Positions 6,082 to 12,767 are shown, counted from the stretch's first letter. The stretch is DNA of 42,032 nucleotides from Thermoplasmatota archaeon (GCA_030616985.1 JAUWWG010000004.1:1-42032); one strand, 5' to 3'. Translations and numbers: made by a program. The notes: a model not told the origin generated them from the letters alone.

Positions 6082-6117
6082 AACCATGCTAATCATTAAC
6101 ACTATATACTAGCAACC
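6082..6117 (+). repeat. degenerate fourth copy of the intergenic repeat
   Basis: aaccatgctaatcattaacactatatactagcaacc aligns to the 5' half of the family. Confidence 0.45.
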
Positions 6118-6129
6118 CTTACCTAATTT

Positions 6130-6277
6130 ATGCCTAAACAAAAACTAACTCTAAGCATCGATAAAGATATAATAACTCAAGCCAAAAAAACAACAAATCA
6201 ACCTCAGTTCATTCCTTGAAATCCGCCTGATCGACTACCTTGCAGATAAGGAGAAATGCTCCCGACGGGGTACATAA
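6130..6277 (+). pseudogene. frameshifted DUF6364/ribbon-helix-helix antitoxin-like relic
   Basis: MPKQKLTLSIDKDIITQAKK in one frame, then NLSSFLEIRLIDYLADKEKC in another; together resemble a DUF6364-like small protein. Confidence 0.5.
6255..6269. repeat. attachment-site direct repeat, distal copy
   Basis: AATGCTCCCGACGGG identical to 12185-12199. Confidence 0.75.
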
Positions 6278-6366
6278 ACTTTTAACTCTGTTGAAAAAGT
6301 TAACGAATTGCCAATATCACACAATAAACCCTTTTTTTTCTTTTTTTATTAACAGGAGGTATCCTA

Positions 6367-7443
6367 TTGGTTGTTAAATCAATAGGACATGAAGAGAATT
6401 CATCATCTAGTAGTTTACTTGACACGTATTCACGAATAATTCAAAAAAACCAAATTAAGTTAATAGATGTAAACGAGATTAAAACTAATCAGAAGAGGGC
6501 GAATATCATCGCATTGGAACATTATATTGGAGAAATAAAAAATGAATATATTGAGAATTTTAAAGATACTTCTGTTATTGAAAGATGGTTTTCTCCTGTT
6601 GATGATTTGAATAAGCTTCTCCTTTCTTTTGCATTGAAGTCGTTTAAATTTTATCTTGCTAAATCTGAAGAAGAAAATAGATATATTTTAGCATATTCTG
6701 TAGATGGTGAAGAGATATTCATAGAATTGGATAATAGATATTGTAAAAGCTACCAGGAGAAAATAAAAAGACGTGCTAATTATCTATCTTGGAAGTATCA
6801 GAAATCTACGTCTGTTTTACTCACGCTGACAATAGATCCCAAGCTGTATTATGATAATAAATACAGGATGTGGATGGATATTAAGAAACAGTATAATCGT
6901 TTTATTACGGCAGTAAAGTATTATTTTAAGAAACGAGGTGTCAAATCTCCACCGTATGTGTGCACTATTGAGGCACAGAAGAATGGTAATCCTCATTTGC
7001 ATATTTGCTTTCTTGGAGCATCTAGAATAATGGATTACCGTAAGTTAAGGGACTTATGGAAACTGGGTTTTATATGGATTAACAGGGATAGTGCAGGAAA
7101 AAAAATCAGGAATCCTATAAATTATCTGATGAAGTACATCACCAAGACGTACACTAATACAAATGAATACAACCAGTTAACTCAAGCTCTGTGTTGGTTG
7201 TTTAATATTCGTTCGTATCAATGCTCACGTGGGTTGATAACACCATTGAAACCAAAATCTGATTCTGAATGTAGTTCTGAATATTTGGTAATTGTTGATG
7301 ATAGTATTCCACTATCTTTTCTGTATCAGAATATCGATTTTGTTAAACGGTTAAACGACCCGATCTTTAGAAATAAGTATACAAATTATGATCCAAATGG
7401 TTATCGTAAGAGGAGGGAAAGATTTTATATGAGATATACTTGA
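6367..7443 (+). CDS. HUH-superfamily rolling-circle replication initiator (Rep)
   Basis: LLTLTID (motif 1), GNPHLHICFLG (HUH-like motif 2), NYLMKYITKTY (Tyr motif 3); TTG start after aggaggt. Confidence 0.75.
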   Translation: MVVKSIGHEENSSSSSLLDTYSRIIQKNQIKLIDVNEIKTNQKRANIIALEHYIGEIKNEYIENFKDTSVIERWFSPVDDLNKLLLSFALKSFKFYLAKSEEENRYILAYSVDGEEIFIELDNRYCKSYQEKIKRRANYLSWKYQKSTSVLLTLTIDPKLYYDNKYRMWMDIKKQYNRFITAVKYYFKKRGVKSPPYVCTIEAQKNGNPHLHICFLGASRIMDYRKLRDLWKLGFIWINRDSAGKKIRNPINYLMKYITKTYTNTNEYNQLTQALCWLFNIRSYQCSRGLITPLKPKSDSECSSEYLVIVDDSIPLSFLYQNIDFVKRLNDPIFRNKYTNYDPNGYRKRRERFYMRYT

Positions 7444-7551
7444 GAAGAGGCGTTGATTGGAAAATTCTGAATATTCTAATAATAAGGATCATAGAACAAA
7501 ATTATAACGATGAGGTTTTTATAAGAATCTTTCTGATGGTGATAAGAGGAA

Positions 7552-7657
7552 ATGAGGGCGACGGGTACGGAGCGTCATCCAATATTAAAAGAGGAAGGGA
7601 GTATCCATCTTAATTAGTAAGGTTGTGATGGACTACGACCGATCCTAGTTGCCTCAT
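7552..7657 (+). ncRNA. candidate structured RNA between rep and the ATPase gene
   Basis: TATA-like TTTTTATAAG 7516-7525; closing stem ATGAGG(g)CGAC 7552-7562 with GTTGCCTCAT 7648-7657; inner hairpin GTATCCATC 7601-7609 with GATGGA(c)TAC 7627-7636; no ORF. Confidence 0.4.
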
Positions 7658-7682
7658 GCTCCTATTTATCGGCATATTATGT

Positions 7683-7802
7683 GTTTGATTCAATTCTTAT
7701 CAAACATAAAACAAATTTGGTGTGGCGGGCTTGCCGGAGGCAAGGGCGCACAAATTGTTTACGCTAAACGTATAAAACAATTTAAATATCAATAAATTGT
7801 TT
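7683..7802. repeat. cluster of inverted repeats in a non-coding region
   Basis: GTTTGAT/ATCAAAC 7683-7705; cttgcc-gga-ggcaag within 7721-7760; AAACAATTTA/TAAATTGTTT 7775-7802. Confidence 0.65.
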
Positions 7803-7855
7803 AATAGATGAATTTAGCTATACTATTTAAAACAAAAGGTTAACGAGAGTATAAA

Positions 7856-9277
7856 ATGATTAAAAAAATTCATATAAAAAATTTTAGAAGCATAATTAAC
7901 CAAGATATTGAATTAAGACCATTAACTGTTATAGTTGGTGCAAATAATACAGGAAAGTCAAATTTAATTAAATGTTTAGATTTTTTAGGAAATTTATCAA
8001 GAAAAGGATTGAGAGAAAGTATAAAGGATAAAGACGGATTTAATAATATTCTCCCAAAAATATATGATGAAAAAAAATTAAAAGGGAAAAAAACTGAAAT
8101 TGATGTTAATTTTAAAAGTGAACCTTATAAATTTGAAAATGAAAAGGAAAGAGAACTATGGTGTAATTATTCTATTGAATTTGGACTAGAAGCTAATGAA
8201 AGAATAAAAGTCGAGAAAGAAATAACTAAAGTTTTTGATATTTTAGGGGTGACAAGCAGATTAAATAAATCAGTTAAAAAATATAATAGAAAATCAGAAA
8301 TAATAATAGAGATAGCAAAAAATAAAATAGGAATTTCAAGTAATCCTGGACTAACCTCAAGAAATATTGATTTATTTTATAATTGGATGCTTCCTGGTCC
8401 AATATTAGATTCGGTTGATTCAATAAAAAAATCCAGTTCAACACATAAAAAAATTTTGGCACCTCTAATTGGATATACTTTATTAAAATCAAGAGGGAAA
8501 GTTAGTACAATGATGGCAGAGAACCTAACGCCAGATAATTTATATGAGTTAGCGGCTAAAGCTGATGAAGATTATGATTCTATATTTGGAACTATTTTAT
8601 CAGAAATATCACCACATTTTTTAAGAATAAGATCAGCATTAACGAATATTAATCGTTATGATTTTTTAATTAATATTTTAAGGAAAGAACAAAATATATC
8701 ACAAGATAAAATTTTAAAATTAACTGGAGATAACTTAACTTCTGTATTACAATCAGTATCAAAAGAAAATAAAGAAGCATGGAATCGTATTTTAGACACT
8801 CTATCAAATATATCGCCAATGATTAATGATATTCAAACTAAAAAATTTTTAAGAGAAAAACTTTATATAGAATTTGAAGAAATATTTGGTGGAAGGCCTA
8901 TAGAGTCTTGGGAAGCATCAGATGGAACTTTAAGAGTTTTAGCAATTTTAACTGCTATTGAAAGTCAAAAACCATATGCCACTGTCCTAATAGAAGAACC
9001 TGAAATTGGACTACATCCTTGGGCATTAAAACATTTAATTGAACATATGAAAGAATTAATTGAAAAAAATAATATTCAAATTATTATAACAACACATTCC
9101 GATCAAATATTAGAAAATGTAAAAATGGATGAAGTATTGGTTTGTTCAAGAAATGAAAAAGAAGGTACTGTATTTAAGACTTTAAAAGAAATATCACCTA
9201 ATTCTAATGAAGATATGAATTCTATAGGAAGAAAATGGAGACAGGGACTTATCGGAGGAGTCCCAGAATGTGTATAG
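7856..9277 (+). CDS. OLD/RecF-like AAA ATPase (AAA_15/AAA_21 type)
   Basis: IKNFRSI and VGANNTGKSNLIK (Walker A), TVLIEEPEIGLHP (Walker B), IIITTHSDQIL (H-loop). Confidence 0.88.
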   Translation: MIKKIHIKNFRSIINQDIELRPLTVIVGANNTGKSNLIKCLDFLGNLSRKGLRESIKDKDGFNNILPKIYDEKKLKGKKTEIDVNFKSEPYKFENEKERELWCNYSIEFGLEANERIKVEKEITKVFDILGVTSRLNKSVKKYNRKSEIIIEIAKNKIGISSNPGLTSRNIDLFYNWMLPGPILDSVDSIKKSSSTHKKILAPLIGYTLLKSRGKVSTMMAENLTPDNLYELAAKADEDYDSIFGTILSEISPHFLRIRSALTNINRYDFLINILRKEQNISQDKILKLTGDNLTSVLQSVSKENKEAWNRILDTLSNISPMINDIQTKKFLREKLYIEFEEIFGGRPIESWEASDGTLRVLAILTAIESQKPYATVLIEEPEIGLHPWALKHLIEHMKELIEKNNIQIIITTHSDQILENVKMDEVLVCSRNEKEGTVFKTLKEISPNSNEDMNSIGRKWRQGLIGGVPECV

Positions 9278-9939
9278 TAAGACCTGCAATTGGTTGTATT
9301 GTTGAAGGTGAAGGTGAAAGAGTATCATTTAAAAAATTAATATACGGAATAAATGGCACAATAGTAAAACCAATTCATATATCAAAGGCCCAAGGAAATG
9401 GAGATATCACATCAAATTTAGAAGAAAAATTAACCGATTTAGCTGAAACCCATATGCCAATAACAATAATTGTTTGTTTAGATTATATTGATGCAAAAAA
9501 AAATAATCCTATTATTAAAACGTGTGAAGATTTGATTAAAGAACTTTCACAAAGGGCAACCAATTGGTTAAAATCAAAAAGAATAAAGGAATCTCAAAAA
9601 CCTAAACAGATATCGATTGTTACAATAATACCAAAATTAGAATGTTGGTATTTTGCTGACAGTACTTATATTAAAAGTAAATGTGAAGTCGACATATCAA
9701 CAATTAGTTTCCCAAAAAAAATAATAAATGCAGATGCAGATATTCGTTGTCCTCAAAAATTAATAAAAATTTTATTCCCAAGTAAAAAGATTAAAAGCCC
9801 CAAATTCGCTAAAGAAATCTTAACAAGCGGTGATCCTTCTGTGATGAGAGAGAATAGTAGATCTTTTAGAAAATTTTTTGATGAAGTAGAAAGTGCGAAA
9901 GTAAGGCATGATTCTTACCTTAAATTAAATTTTGGATAA
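9268..9939 (+). CDS. TOPRIM-like DUF4276-family partner protein
   Basis: GCIVEGEGERVSFKKL and IIVCLDYID acidic motifs, LECWYFAD; ATG at 9268 with GGAGGAG 9254-9260; overlaps ATPase end by 10 nt. Confidence 0.7.
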   Translation: MCIVRPAIGCIVEGEGERVSFKKLIYGINGTIVKPIHISKAQGNGDITSNLEEKLTDLAETHMPITIIVCLDYIDAKKNNPIIKTCEDLIKELSQRATNWLKSKRIKESQKPKQISIVTIIPKLECWYFADSTYIKSKCEVDISTISFPKKIINADADIRCPQKLIKILFPSKKIKSPKFAKEILTSGDPSVMRENSRSFRKFFDEVESAKVRHDSYLKLNFG

Positions 9940-10083
9940 TTTATACAAGTTTTCAAAAAATAAGGTTAATGGAACAAAATTATTTCGATGGGATTGTAAT
10001 CAGCATCCTCATTATGACGATAAGTGGTTTCCATTAAAACGTGTCGGGCTTTTAACTTTTGCAATATGTGCCCGCCTCAGGAT

Positions 10084-10791
10084 TTATTTGGTAATGGAAT
10101 CTGAATATAATACTGCATATTTTACACCTGTAAGAATAGCTTTATGTTCAGGGTATAATTTTGTTAATTCCTTAAAAGTATCAATATCAAATTTTCTAAA
10201 AAATTTATTGGATTGTAGTACACGTTTATCTTCAACACCATAACTTTTTATTTTTATATCTGGAATAAATGTTGGATCAAGATTTCTAATATTAGCGCTG
10301 ACTTTTTCAGTATCGATATTTTTTACATGTTTATATTTTCGTATCTCAGACTTAAAATATTCTGAAATTGCATTTAGACCAAGGATTCCAAGTATATCTT
10401 TATGTGTTCGAATTATGCGATGGTGATATTCACCATTTTTTGTTTTAATTACTTGTGTTGCACCAATAATTATTCGAAAACTTTTACTGTCAATGAGATT
10501 TTTTATATCTGTTGTCCGTATAATCTTTGTATCTCTCTTAATGATATTTATTAAAGGTTGTGATAGTGAACGGTATCGATCACTTTTCCATGAAGGCTTT
10601 TTCTGATGTCTTTCAAATAAAATTCCTTCATATTCCTGAAAGTTCTTTGTATACATTCCAACATTTTTATTTTTAAATATTTTAGCGATAGCCATTCCAC
10701 TAATAAAATCTGAGTAAGCTCCTGCATAACAATTTGTCAATGTTTTAGATTTTTCCAAATCTTCCCATTTTGGTTTTTTATTAGGTTGCAT
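10084..10791 (-). CDS. hypothetical protein of the integrated element
   Basis: 235-aa ORF divergent from the integrase; no family recognised. Confidence 0.65.
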   Translation of the reverse strand: MQPNKKPKWEDLEKSKTLTNCYAGAYSDFISGMAIAKIFKNKNVGMYTKNFQEYEGILFERHQKKPSWKSDRYRSLSQPLINIIKRDTKIIRTTDIKNLIDSKSFRIIIGATQVIKTKNGEYHHRIIRTHKDILGILGLNAISEYFKSEIRKYKHVKNIDTEKVSANIRNLDPTFIPDIKIKSYGVEDKRVLQSNKFFRKFDIDTFKELTKLYPEHKAILTGVKYAVLYSDSITK

Positions 10792-10857
10792 ATTTACACG
10801 ATCTTAATTTTATGTAAATAATTTGACTTATATAAACATATTTACATTCATGTAAAT
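10792..10857. promoter_or_regulatory. divergent promoter/operator with inverted repeats
   Basis: ATTTACAT-tc-ATGTAAAT 10840-10857 and ATTTACA...TGTAAAT 10792-10819 between divergent genes. Confidence 0.6.
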
Positions 10858-10867
10858 ATTGACATAA

Positions 10868-12241
10868 ATGAAAAACATTAATAAGCCTAAATTTAATAGC
10901 CTTTTGCCAAAAAATAACGAGGCAGGAGGCAATATACAAGAATGGAAAAGAGAAATGGTATTAGGCAGAAACAAAGTAACTATCTCAACCCCAAAAGGGG
11001 AGGATGGGGTGATAAGAAATAGTAAATTTCAAAATTATGATGTTGGCATTATCAAAAAGATAGACAGTAAAAAATTATTGTATCCGTTAACTGTAGATTT
11101 CAGCAGATATGAAACAAATGAAGAATTATACTGTGCGGTTAAGACATGGTGGATTGAAACAAAAAAGAAAGCGGAAAAAACAATAGATGTCAGGATTAGG
11201 ACAGCTCGACAATTTGAAAGACACCCGGTATTTCCAATCAATTGGTTGATATTTGATGAAAAACCAGAACAAGTGATAAATTTATTGATGTATCTTGAAA
11301 ATGTAGAGTACAAGGAAAAAGGAAAAGAGTTAGATGTAAATAATTACGGTGTAAATCACATTCATAACCTTTGGAAGACGATAAGAACATTTGCAGAAGC
11401 AAGAGGAGTAGATATTTCATATTGGCCGTATAAACCACCGGAAAGACCAGAGAACAAAGTAAAAATAATACCAATGCCCCCAATGGTAAACAAATTAATA
11501 CATCATAAATATGCAAAAGCTCAATATACGAATAAACTGATAAAAACAATACTGACCATAGGATTTCAATCAGGATTACGACCAGAGGAAATAATAATAT
11601 TAAAAGTGAAAAACATAGATTTTGAAAGTGGAACAGTTATAATAACAGAGCAAAAGAAAAGACATAGAAATCGACAGATAAGACTAGAAAAACCAGTGAT
11701 GTATAGTAGACAGCAAAACAGTTTGAAAAATTGGATATATATCTGGAGAAAAAAGAAGACAAATGATGATGGTTTTTTATTTTTAAAACCAAATGGAAAA
11801 CCATTTGAAACAGTAGCTGATCTCAGAGGCTTCCTAGCGGATTATGTAAAACCAGTATGGAATGATTTTTGTCCTAAGATAATGAGGGATTGGTACGCAA
11901 TAGCTAAGATGATACAGTATATGGAGAAAAATGGCTCTTGGCAGATAAGGAAGGTTAAAAATAAATTAGGACATAAGAAACAGGATACTACAGAGATATA
12001 TGTTGAATTTGCTGAAATGTACTATGAAAATTTTAAATTTGATTGGTTAAAATCTGTCCTTAAATTTCATCAGAATAGTAAACGAATGAAAAAATTGATG
12101 AAAGAGGATTACAGGTCGAGCCAAGAAAATTTAAGCAAACGAAAAAAATGGGCTGGCTTAATCAAATTCCCTTCTGTTGGAATTAATGCTCCCGACGGGA
12201 TTCGAACCCGTGTAGCCAGCTCGAAAGGCTGGAATGATTGA
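10868..12241 (+). CDS. tyrosine recombinase/integrase whose 3' end is antisense to tRNA-Glu
   Basis: SGLRPEEIIILKVKNIDFE (Arg box), LGHKKQDTTEIYVEF (His/Tyr region); C-terminus NAPDGIRTRVASSKGWND is the tRNA read in antisense. Confidence 0.85.
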   Translation: MKNINKPKFNSLLPKNNEAGGNIQEWKREMVLGRNKVTISTPKGEDGVIRNSKFQNYDVGIIKKIDSKKLLYPLTVDFSRYETNEELYCAVKTWWIETKKKAEKTIDVRIRTARQFERHPVFPINWLIFDEKPEQVINLLMYLENVEYKEKGKELDVNNYGVNHIHNLWKTIRTFAEARGVDISYWPYKPPERPENKVKIIPMPPMVNKLIHHKYAKAQYTNKLIKTILTIGFQSGLRPEEIIILKVKNIDFESGTVIITEQKKRHRNRQIRLEKPVMYSRQQNSLKNWIYIWRKKKTNDDGFLFLKPNGKPFETVADLRGFLADYVKPVWNDFCPKIMRDWYAIAKMIQYMEKNGSWQIRKVKNKLGHKKQDTTEIYVEFAEMYYENFKFDWLKSVLKFHQNSKRMKKLMKEDYRSSQENLSKRKKWAGLIKFPSVGINAPDGIRTRVASSKGWND

Positions 12242-12261
12242 CCGGACTACACCACGGGAGC
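12187..12261 (-). tRNA. tRNA-Glu (anticodon TTC)
   Basis: minus strand GCTCCCGTGGTGTAGTCCGGTCAATCATTCCAGCCTTTCGAGCTGG...GGGTTCGAATCCCGTCGGGAGCA; anticodon loop CTTTCGA. Confidence 0.92.
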
Positions 12262-12269
12262 AAATTGAG

Positions 12270-12341
12270 CAGCCCTGTCCAGATTCGAACTGGAGTCGCT
12301 GGCTCCAAAGGCCAGCATGTTAACCACTACACCACAGGGCC
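12270..12341 (-). tRNA. tRNA-Gln (anticodon TTG)
   Basis: minus strand GGCCCTGTGGTGTAGTGGTTAACATGCTGGCCTTTGGAGCCAGCGACTCCAGTTCGAATCTGGACAGGGCTG; loop CTTTGGA. Confidence 0.9.
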
Positions 12342-12580: not shown

Positions 12581-12694
12581 AGTAGTAAATTCAACTAAAT
12601 GCTGACATAATAAAGTGGACTGAGTCACATTTTAGAGTTATATCAAGTGGCCGGATCTAACTACTAGATTATGCCCCCCCAAAGCACCAGTGAA

Positions 12695-12767
12695 TAGTCC
12701 CATCCAGATTCAAACTGGAGTCGCTGGCTCCAAAGGACAGAATGATTGACCGCTACAACACGGGGCT
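12695..12767 (-). pseudogene. tRNA pseudogene, chimeric Glu-like 5' and Gln-like 3'
   Basis: 3' part CTTTGGAGCCAGCGACTCCAGTTTGAATCTGGA matches tRNA-Gln; 5' part GGTCAATCATTC matches tRNA-Glu; mismatched acceptor and anticodon stems. Confidence 0.7.

Follow-up and report, generated by a model that had tools for sequence, protein, structure and literature searches.

A probable integrated rolling-circle plasmid with a candidate defence gene pair at a tRNA-Glu gene of a Candidatus Thermoplasmatota archaeon

Small plasmids of uncultured Thermoplasmatota have, to our knowledge, hardly been described. Points of comparison are provided by other archaeal elements. Thaumarchaeal integrated elements carry defence genes as cargo, and those that target tRNA genes lie in the 3′ part of the gene (PMC6563490); one of them, NitAQ6f-E2, is a small element combining a tyrosine integrase with a rolling-circle Rep (PMC6563490). 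The plasmid pTP2 (NC_021208.1) of Thermococcus prieurii replicates from a rolling-circle origin that is functional in T. kodakarensis (PMC5988781). Kazlauskas et al. (PMC6668415) grouped some pleolipovirus Reps with pTP2-like plasmids, and HUH Reps are exchanged freely between plasmids and viruses (PMC6668415). With respect to integration, SSV-type suicidal and pNOB8-type integrases are archaeal tyrosine integrases that use tRNA genes (PMC8371274), and suicidal integrases with attP within the gene are described in an archaeal recombinase review. In haloarchaeal proviruses of the pleolipovirus type, attP lies within a coding sequence that integration splits (PMC7911831).

Here we present an element with counterparts to these features, found in a stretch of 42,032 nucleotides from a Thermoplasmatota archaeon (GCA_030616985.1 JAUWWG010000004.1:1-42032), hereafter the window. 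In all likelihood, positions 6270-12184 together with one att copy constitute an integrated rolling-circle plasmid of this Candidatus Thermoplasmatota archaeon, and the plasmid is probably still functional. The element is delimited to the base, its empty site is known and a candidate defence pair is aboard; it therefore connects the way in which defence genes spread among archaea with rolling-circle plasmids. Members of its integrase family stand next to tRNAs of 16 types in related genomes, and the combination of an integrase frame running into a tRNA with an arm motif offers a simple handle for finding many more such elements.

Limits of the element and its empty site

The first-pass annotation, made from the sequence alone, had described a 15-bp direct repeat bounding about 5.9 kb, one copy forming the 3′ end of an intact tRNA-Glu, and had placed between the copies an HUH-type Rep, an ATPase/TOPRIM-like pair of putative defence function, an orphan ORF and a tyrosine integrase. 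All of these calls were borne out (Table 1), the defence function itself staying putative. The repeat, AATGCTCCCGACGGG, is found exactly at attL and attR and nowhere else in the window at up to 2 mismatches, giving a unit of 5,930 bp; allowing 3 mismatches adds one unrelated site. In 42 kb, chance alone would yield about 1e-5 exact 15-bp copies, and in the whole 2.05-Mb assembly the two att places are the only mismatch-free occurrences of the 12-bp core GCTCCCGACGGG. ARAGORN reports the tRNA-Glu(TTC) gene, whose 3′ end is the right repeat copy, as intact, with tRNA-Gln(TTG) adjoining it at 12269-12341(-). The unit thus has direct repeats at both ends, one of which completes a tRNA gene, as in tRNA-targeted integrative elements. 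Its GC content is 29.5% vs 36.2% in the rest of the window. The arm-like motif at the left end is weak, with a one-base deletion relative to the consensus. Downstream of the intact tRNA-Gln, positions 12691-12766 hold a second, degenerate tRNA-Gln-like sequence (~85-88% to tRNA-Gln).

Table 1. Features of the element and its target gene, in window coordinates
Feature	Position	Strand	Basis
attL, displaced copy of the tRNA-Glu 3′ end (15-bp direct repeat)	6255..6269	+	Repeat search; rejoined junction matches G033
Left end of element, arm-like motif CTCTGTTG at 6286-6293	6270..6300	+	Cf. CTCCTGTT/AACAGGAG flanking the core of sister elements
rep, HUH rolling-circle replication initiator	6367..7443	+	PF23343, PHROG 3419, alignment, pTP2 and HRPV-1 matches
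HEC-01A-type AAA/ABC-like ATPase, Walker A GANNTGKS	7856..9277	+	PADLOC PDLC04179 4e-114; AAA_21 3e-33
HEC-01B-type DUF4276 protein, TOPRIM-like acidic motifs EGEGE and DYID	9235..9939	+	PADLOC PDLC04198 7e-37; PF14103 9e-12
Orphan ORF, 235 aa	10084..10791	-	No family match; absent from 80 other class genomes
Tyrosine integrase, 3′ end through att core into tRNA gene (antisense)	10868..12241	+	PF00589 2e-12; 14-integrase alignment; frame test
Right end of element, arm motif CTTCTGTTGGAA adjoining core	12163..12184	+	
attR, 15-bp repeat inside intact tRNA gene	12185..12199	+	Repeat search, ARAGORN
tRNA-Glu(TTC), target gene, intact	12186..12262	-	ARAGORN

The same annotation had proposed a search of relatives for an empty tRNA-Glu site, and had named the lack of such a site, with genes following the host, as one of the patterns that would speak against it. 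The opposite was found on both counts. In G017, a genome of the same family but another genus, the homologue of the window's orf199 (63% identical) stops 209 bp short of an intact tRNA-Glu(TTC), and no element occupies the interval; orf199 itself ends 222 bp before attL. After the tRNA-Glu, G017 continues with a tRNA-Gln, a second tRNA-Gln, the glutamyl-tRNA synthetase gene, CinA and RTC. When the window flanks (6082-6254 and 12185-12262) are rejoined, they align unbroken to two loci of G033, a sister species in the same genus, one alignment covering 218 bp at 82% identity and the other 199 bp at 81%. The rejoined sequence reaches bit scores of 213 and 187 there. With attL in its present form the scores are 172 and 125, and with attR 56 and 82; the crossover point is thus marked at base resolution. 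Relatives thus offer both an empty site, in G017, and uninterrupted flank/tRNA junctions, in G033, whose two loci hold tRNA-Glu fragments and no confirmed intact gene.

The left flank has a history of its own. Just outside attL, the ~170 bp at 6082-6254 recur at 82% beside the tRNA-Glu fragments at both G033 loci, on two contigs with different outer neighbours. By our reading they are a decayed ribbon-helix-helix gene fragment. Because the fragment recurs in this company, more than plain ancestral host DNA is present in the left flank, and an older unit ending in tRNA-Glu is suggested for the site, as if 6082-6254 were the end of another tRNA-Glu-targeting unit. Such an older integration history leaves the boundary of the present element unweakened.

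Replication gene, cargo and sister elements

The Rep belongs to Pfam family PF23343 (REP_ORF2-G2P, 2e-16), also matches PHROG 3419 (rolling-circle initiation) and starts at a TTG codon. It carries HUH motifs 1-3 (LTLTIDP, PHLHICF and YLMKY), as do the Reps of rolling-circle plasmids, and the two tyrosines of the third (Y253xxxY257) are invariant in the Rep alignment (n=5). The best named archaeal match outside Thermoplasmatota is that of pTP2 (3e-7; 27% identity over 46%, the Rep core), about equalled by a Priestia megaterium plasmid (6e-7); the pleolipovirus HRPV-1 matches weakly (2e-3), and a PDB sequence search returned nothing for Rep. Relatives in named records come from Ca. Thermoplasmatota isolate PFL35 and Thermoplasmatales HyVt-387, and this location in Ca. 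Thermoplasmatota MAGs agrees with the archaeal origin assigned at first pass.

The ATPase and DUF4276 ORFs overlap, and this adjacency of HEC-01A and HEC-01B is that of HEC-01, a candidate defence pair in PADLOC. HEC-01 is related to MADS mad3/mad4 and PARIS AriA, whose MADS and PARIS profiles score far lower here; the literature searched held no experimental work on HEC-01 itself. For the ATPase, sequence searches of the PDB found distant relatives only (OLD, PtuA); the DUF4276 protein had no PDB match, and a sequence search of plasmids gave no match to HEC-01B. For the orphan ORF, Pfam, NCBIfam, PADLOC and PHROG yielded no convincing match, and a structure model from the single sequence has a mean pLDDT of 35.7. 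Neither the orphan ORF nor the integrase matched phages in a sequence search of these. A 76-nt direct repeat (7474-7549 and 9952-10027, 74% identical, right copy SKNKVNGTKLFRWDCNQHPHYDDKW) flanks the ATPase/DUF4276 pair, which has the lowest GC content of the element (26.8%); the pair may therefore have been inserted as a module. GC-rich stretches also lie beside it, at 7720-7765 (GTGGCGGGCTTGCCGGAGGCAAGGGCGCAC) and, similar in sequence, at 10036-10078 (CGTGTCGGGC...GTGCCCGCC), the latter of which is matched at 84% by a stretch of contig C127 in the same genome.

HEC-01B and the orphan ORF each occur in one of the 81 class genomes, the window's own. Rep is found in five of the 81, one copy being weak and broken, and weakly in a few more genomes across the phylum; related integrases are present in 43. 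Given the sporadic occurrence of HEC-01B, the orphan ORF and Rep, the cargo of the element is not distributed along host lines. G011 holds a sister element at the same tRNA-Glu, 4.49 kb long with 17-bp repeats and, in the same order, a Rep-like ORF (PF23343 at 0.027 only, below the cut-off), an orphan and a related integrase. Nine further loci combine related integrases with tRNA-derived repeats of 13-20 bp, 3.7-14.4 kb apart, among which the cases with 13-14-bp repeats were not singly tested against chance. Cargo includes an AbiEi/AbiEii pair at L149 (3e-40, 2e-45).

Several loci were noted alongside these. At L041 (6934-10780; G047 contig C110), a related integrase lies at tRNA-Glu(TTC) by CinA/RTC with a Shedu SduA gene (3e-19) adjoining, that is, the same site with a different defence gene from that of the window element; a second att was looked for there and not found. 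At L033 (9492-11947; contig C228 of G039, a genome of the same family as the window's), a Rep relative (47-50%) and, after it, an ATPase lie between alaS and a TrkH-like gene. Families of inovirus morphogenesis proteins match this ATPase (PHROG 20922 'head morphogenesis', 7e-9; PHROG 1675, M13 protein I, 0.008), and the locus is a possible remnant of an inovirus-like element in Thermoplasmatota. At L038 (6327-8048; G033 contig C1), a two-gene module of 1.6 kb is bounded on one side by tRNA-Glu(CTC) and on the other by a further copy of the 3′ end of this tRNA, located where an integrase gene ends. It looks like a tandem, integrase-less unit; its assignment to AbiE was unsupported by PADLOC. 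Finally, G000 has, at L039 (8313-8660; contig C21), an integrase remnant of the related type that runs into that genome's other tRNA-Glu (CTC) gene.

The integrase and its 3′-terminal attachment site

The integrase frame does not stop before the repeat: it reads through and continues 56 nt into the tRNA gene, antisense. In an alignment of 14 integrases the catalytic residues R238, K263, R340, H369 and Y378 are conserved; the H of box II is replaced (KIMR), as it is in relatives at L040 and L041. We assembled 41 loci with an opposite-strand tRNA within 300 nt downstream of the integrase domain, and counted a frame as open when it had no stop between about residue 400 and a point 12 nt into the tRNA. 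The integrase frame is open into the tRNA 3′ end in 36 of the 41 loci, against 11 and 4 for the other two frames of the same DNA, which serve as an internal control; the loci are related by sequence and are not 41 independent events. The target tRNAs are of 16 kinds. In most of 11 reconstructed attP sites, the core has AACAGGAG, CTCCTGTT or a closely similar sequence at a distance of ~10-20 bp, the window element having the weaker arm motifs CTTCTGTTGG / CTCTGTTG.

Integrated, the protein ends in a C-terminal tail of 13 residues derived from the antisense tRNA; the circular form is predicted to end in 35 others. Across elements, the tails predicted for the circular form vary in both length and sequence, and the idea that the tail is a conserved regulatory switch, having no support beyond the open frame, was set aside. 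We see in this arrangement an overlap at the 3′ end and compactness, not a demonstrated switch. A broader proposal, doubtful enough that we put it forward only tentatively, is that these enzymes form an archaeal integrase class with attP built into the 3′ end of int and the frame kept open into the tRNA core, in which integration swaps the C-terminal tail and may help to set integration versus excision; the tRNA-Glu site would then be one of the places used by a large family of small Thermoplasmatota elements that carry cargo and switch between tRNAs. The 3′-terminal attP of this integrase family appears under-described: the searched passages of an archaeal recombinase review hold no description of attP at the 3′ end of int as found here.

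Proposed life of the element and comparison with known systems

What is known of these protein families suggests the following course. The integrase would recombine the 3′ end of tRNA-Glu(TTC) with the 15-bp attP core, which is contained in the 3′ end of the int gene itself, leaving the tRNA whole on the right and a 15-bp scar on the left. Excision driven by Int would release a 5,930-bp circle in which 12199 is joined to 6270 (predicted junction ...CTTCTGTTGGAATTAATGCTCCCGACGGG followed directly by GTACATAAACTTTTAACTCTGTTG...) and attP is restored, and the vacated site is predicted to read ...GCAGATAAGGAGAAATGCTCCCGACGGG followed directly by ATTCGAACCC... on the chromosome. Rep would nick one strand at an origin and so start rolling-circle replication, and the HEC-01-type pair would travel as passenger defence, or exclusion, cargo. 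Among the element genes, no copy-control, excisionase or transfer gene was recognised.

The defence cargo would also suit a chromosomal defence or genomic island, once mobile and now fixed, with its repeats as relics and its Rep and Int as remnants. We consider this unlikely: Rep, Int and the two HEC genes are all full-length and retain their key residues, no difference separates the two copies of the 15-bp repeat and the close species is without the cargo, although older decayed material does adjoin attL and the element is known here from chromosomal DNA alone.

The first-pass annotation had left a choice between an integrated rolling-circle plasmid and a virus-derived element. Of the two, the plasmid fits better because the element holds no capsid, coat or packaging gene. 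Decidedly improbable, in our judgement, is that it is a reduced provirus or satellite of a small ssDNA archaeal virus, inovirus- or pleolipovirus-like, which kept Rep and Int but either no longer has its virion genes or obtains them from a helper. None of the five element genes is a virion gene by Pfam or PHROG, the morphogenesis ATPase, coat or spike genes of inovirus or pleolipovirus proviruses being absent among them, and the G011 sister element is likewise without a recognised virion gene. The link to viruses remains through the Rep family only. Rep is of the ORF2/G2P type with a weak match to pleolipovirus HRPV-1, and archaeal inoviruses have been reported (PMC6813254); a virus-derived origin is possible because the close Rep relative in G039 adjoins an inovirus-type morphogenesis ATPase. 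However, HUH Reps pass between plasmids and viruses (PMC6668415), so that Rep is no proof of viral origin. Coincidental repeats around ordinary chromosomal genes, which the conservation of tRNA 3′ ends and the commonness of short partial matches might invite, are next to impossible in view of the chance expectation given above, the empty sites and the layout shared by sister elements.

An integrated rolling-circle plasmid thus remains our preferred reading, and it can be set against the systems described earlier. From NitAQ6f-E2 (PMC6563490) the element differs in host phylum, in having a PF23343/pTP2-like instead of an SNJ1-like Rep, and in an integrase frame that overlaps the tRNA. Its Rep core resembles that of pTP2, but pTP2 is a free plasmid of 2 kb, for which neither an integrase nor defence genes are annotated. 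SSV-type suicidal integrases have attP inside int, which integration splits into N- and C-terminal parts (PMC8371274), whereas here the core lies beyond the catalytic domain and int stays whole except for its last residues, only the C-terminal tail changing. The present integrase behaves like the pNOB8 type (PMC8371274), but has attP at its own 3′ end. In pleolipovirus-type att sites (PMC7911831) the coding sequence that is split is a separate ORF downstream of int, whereas here the core is in the 3′ end of int itself. Integrated archaeal rolling-circle plasmids with defence cargo are a known type of mobile DNA, of which the present element is a clear, fresh and well-delimited example.
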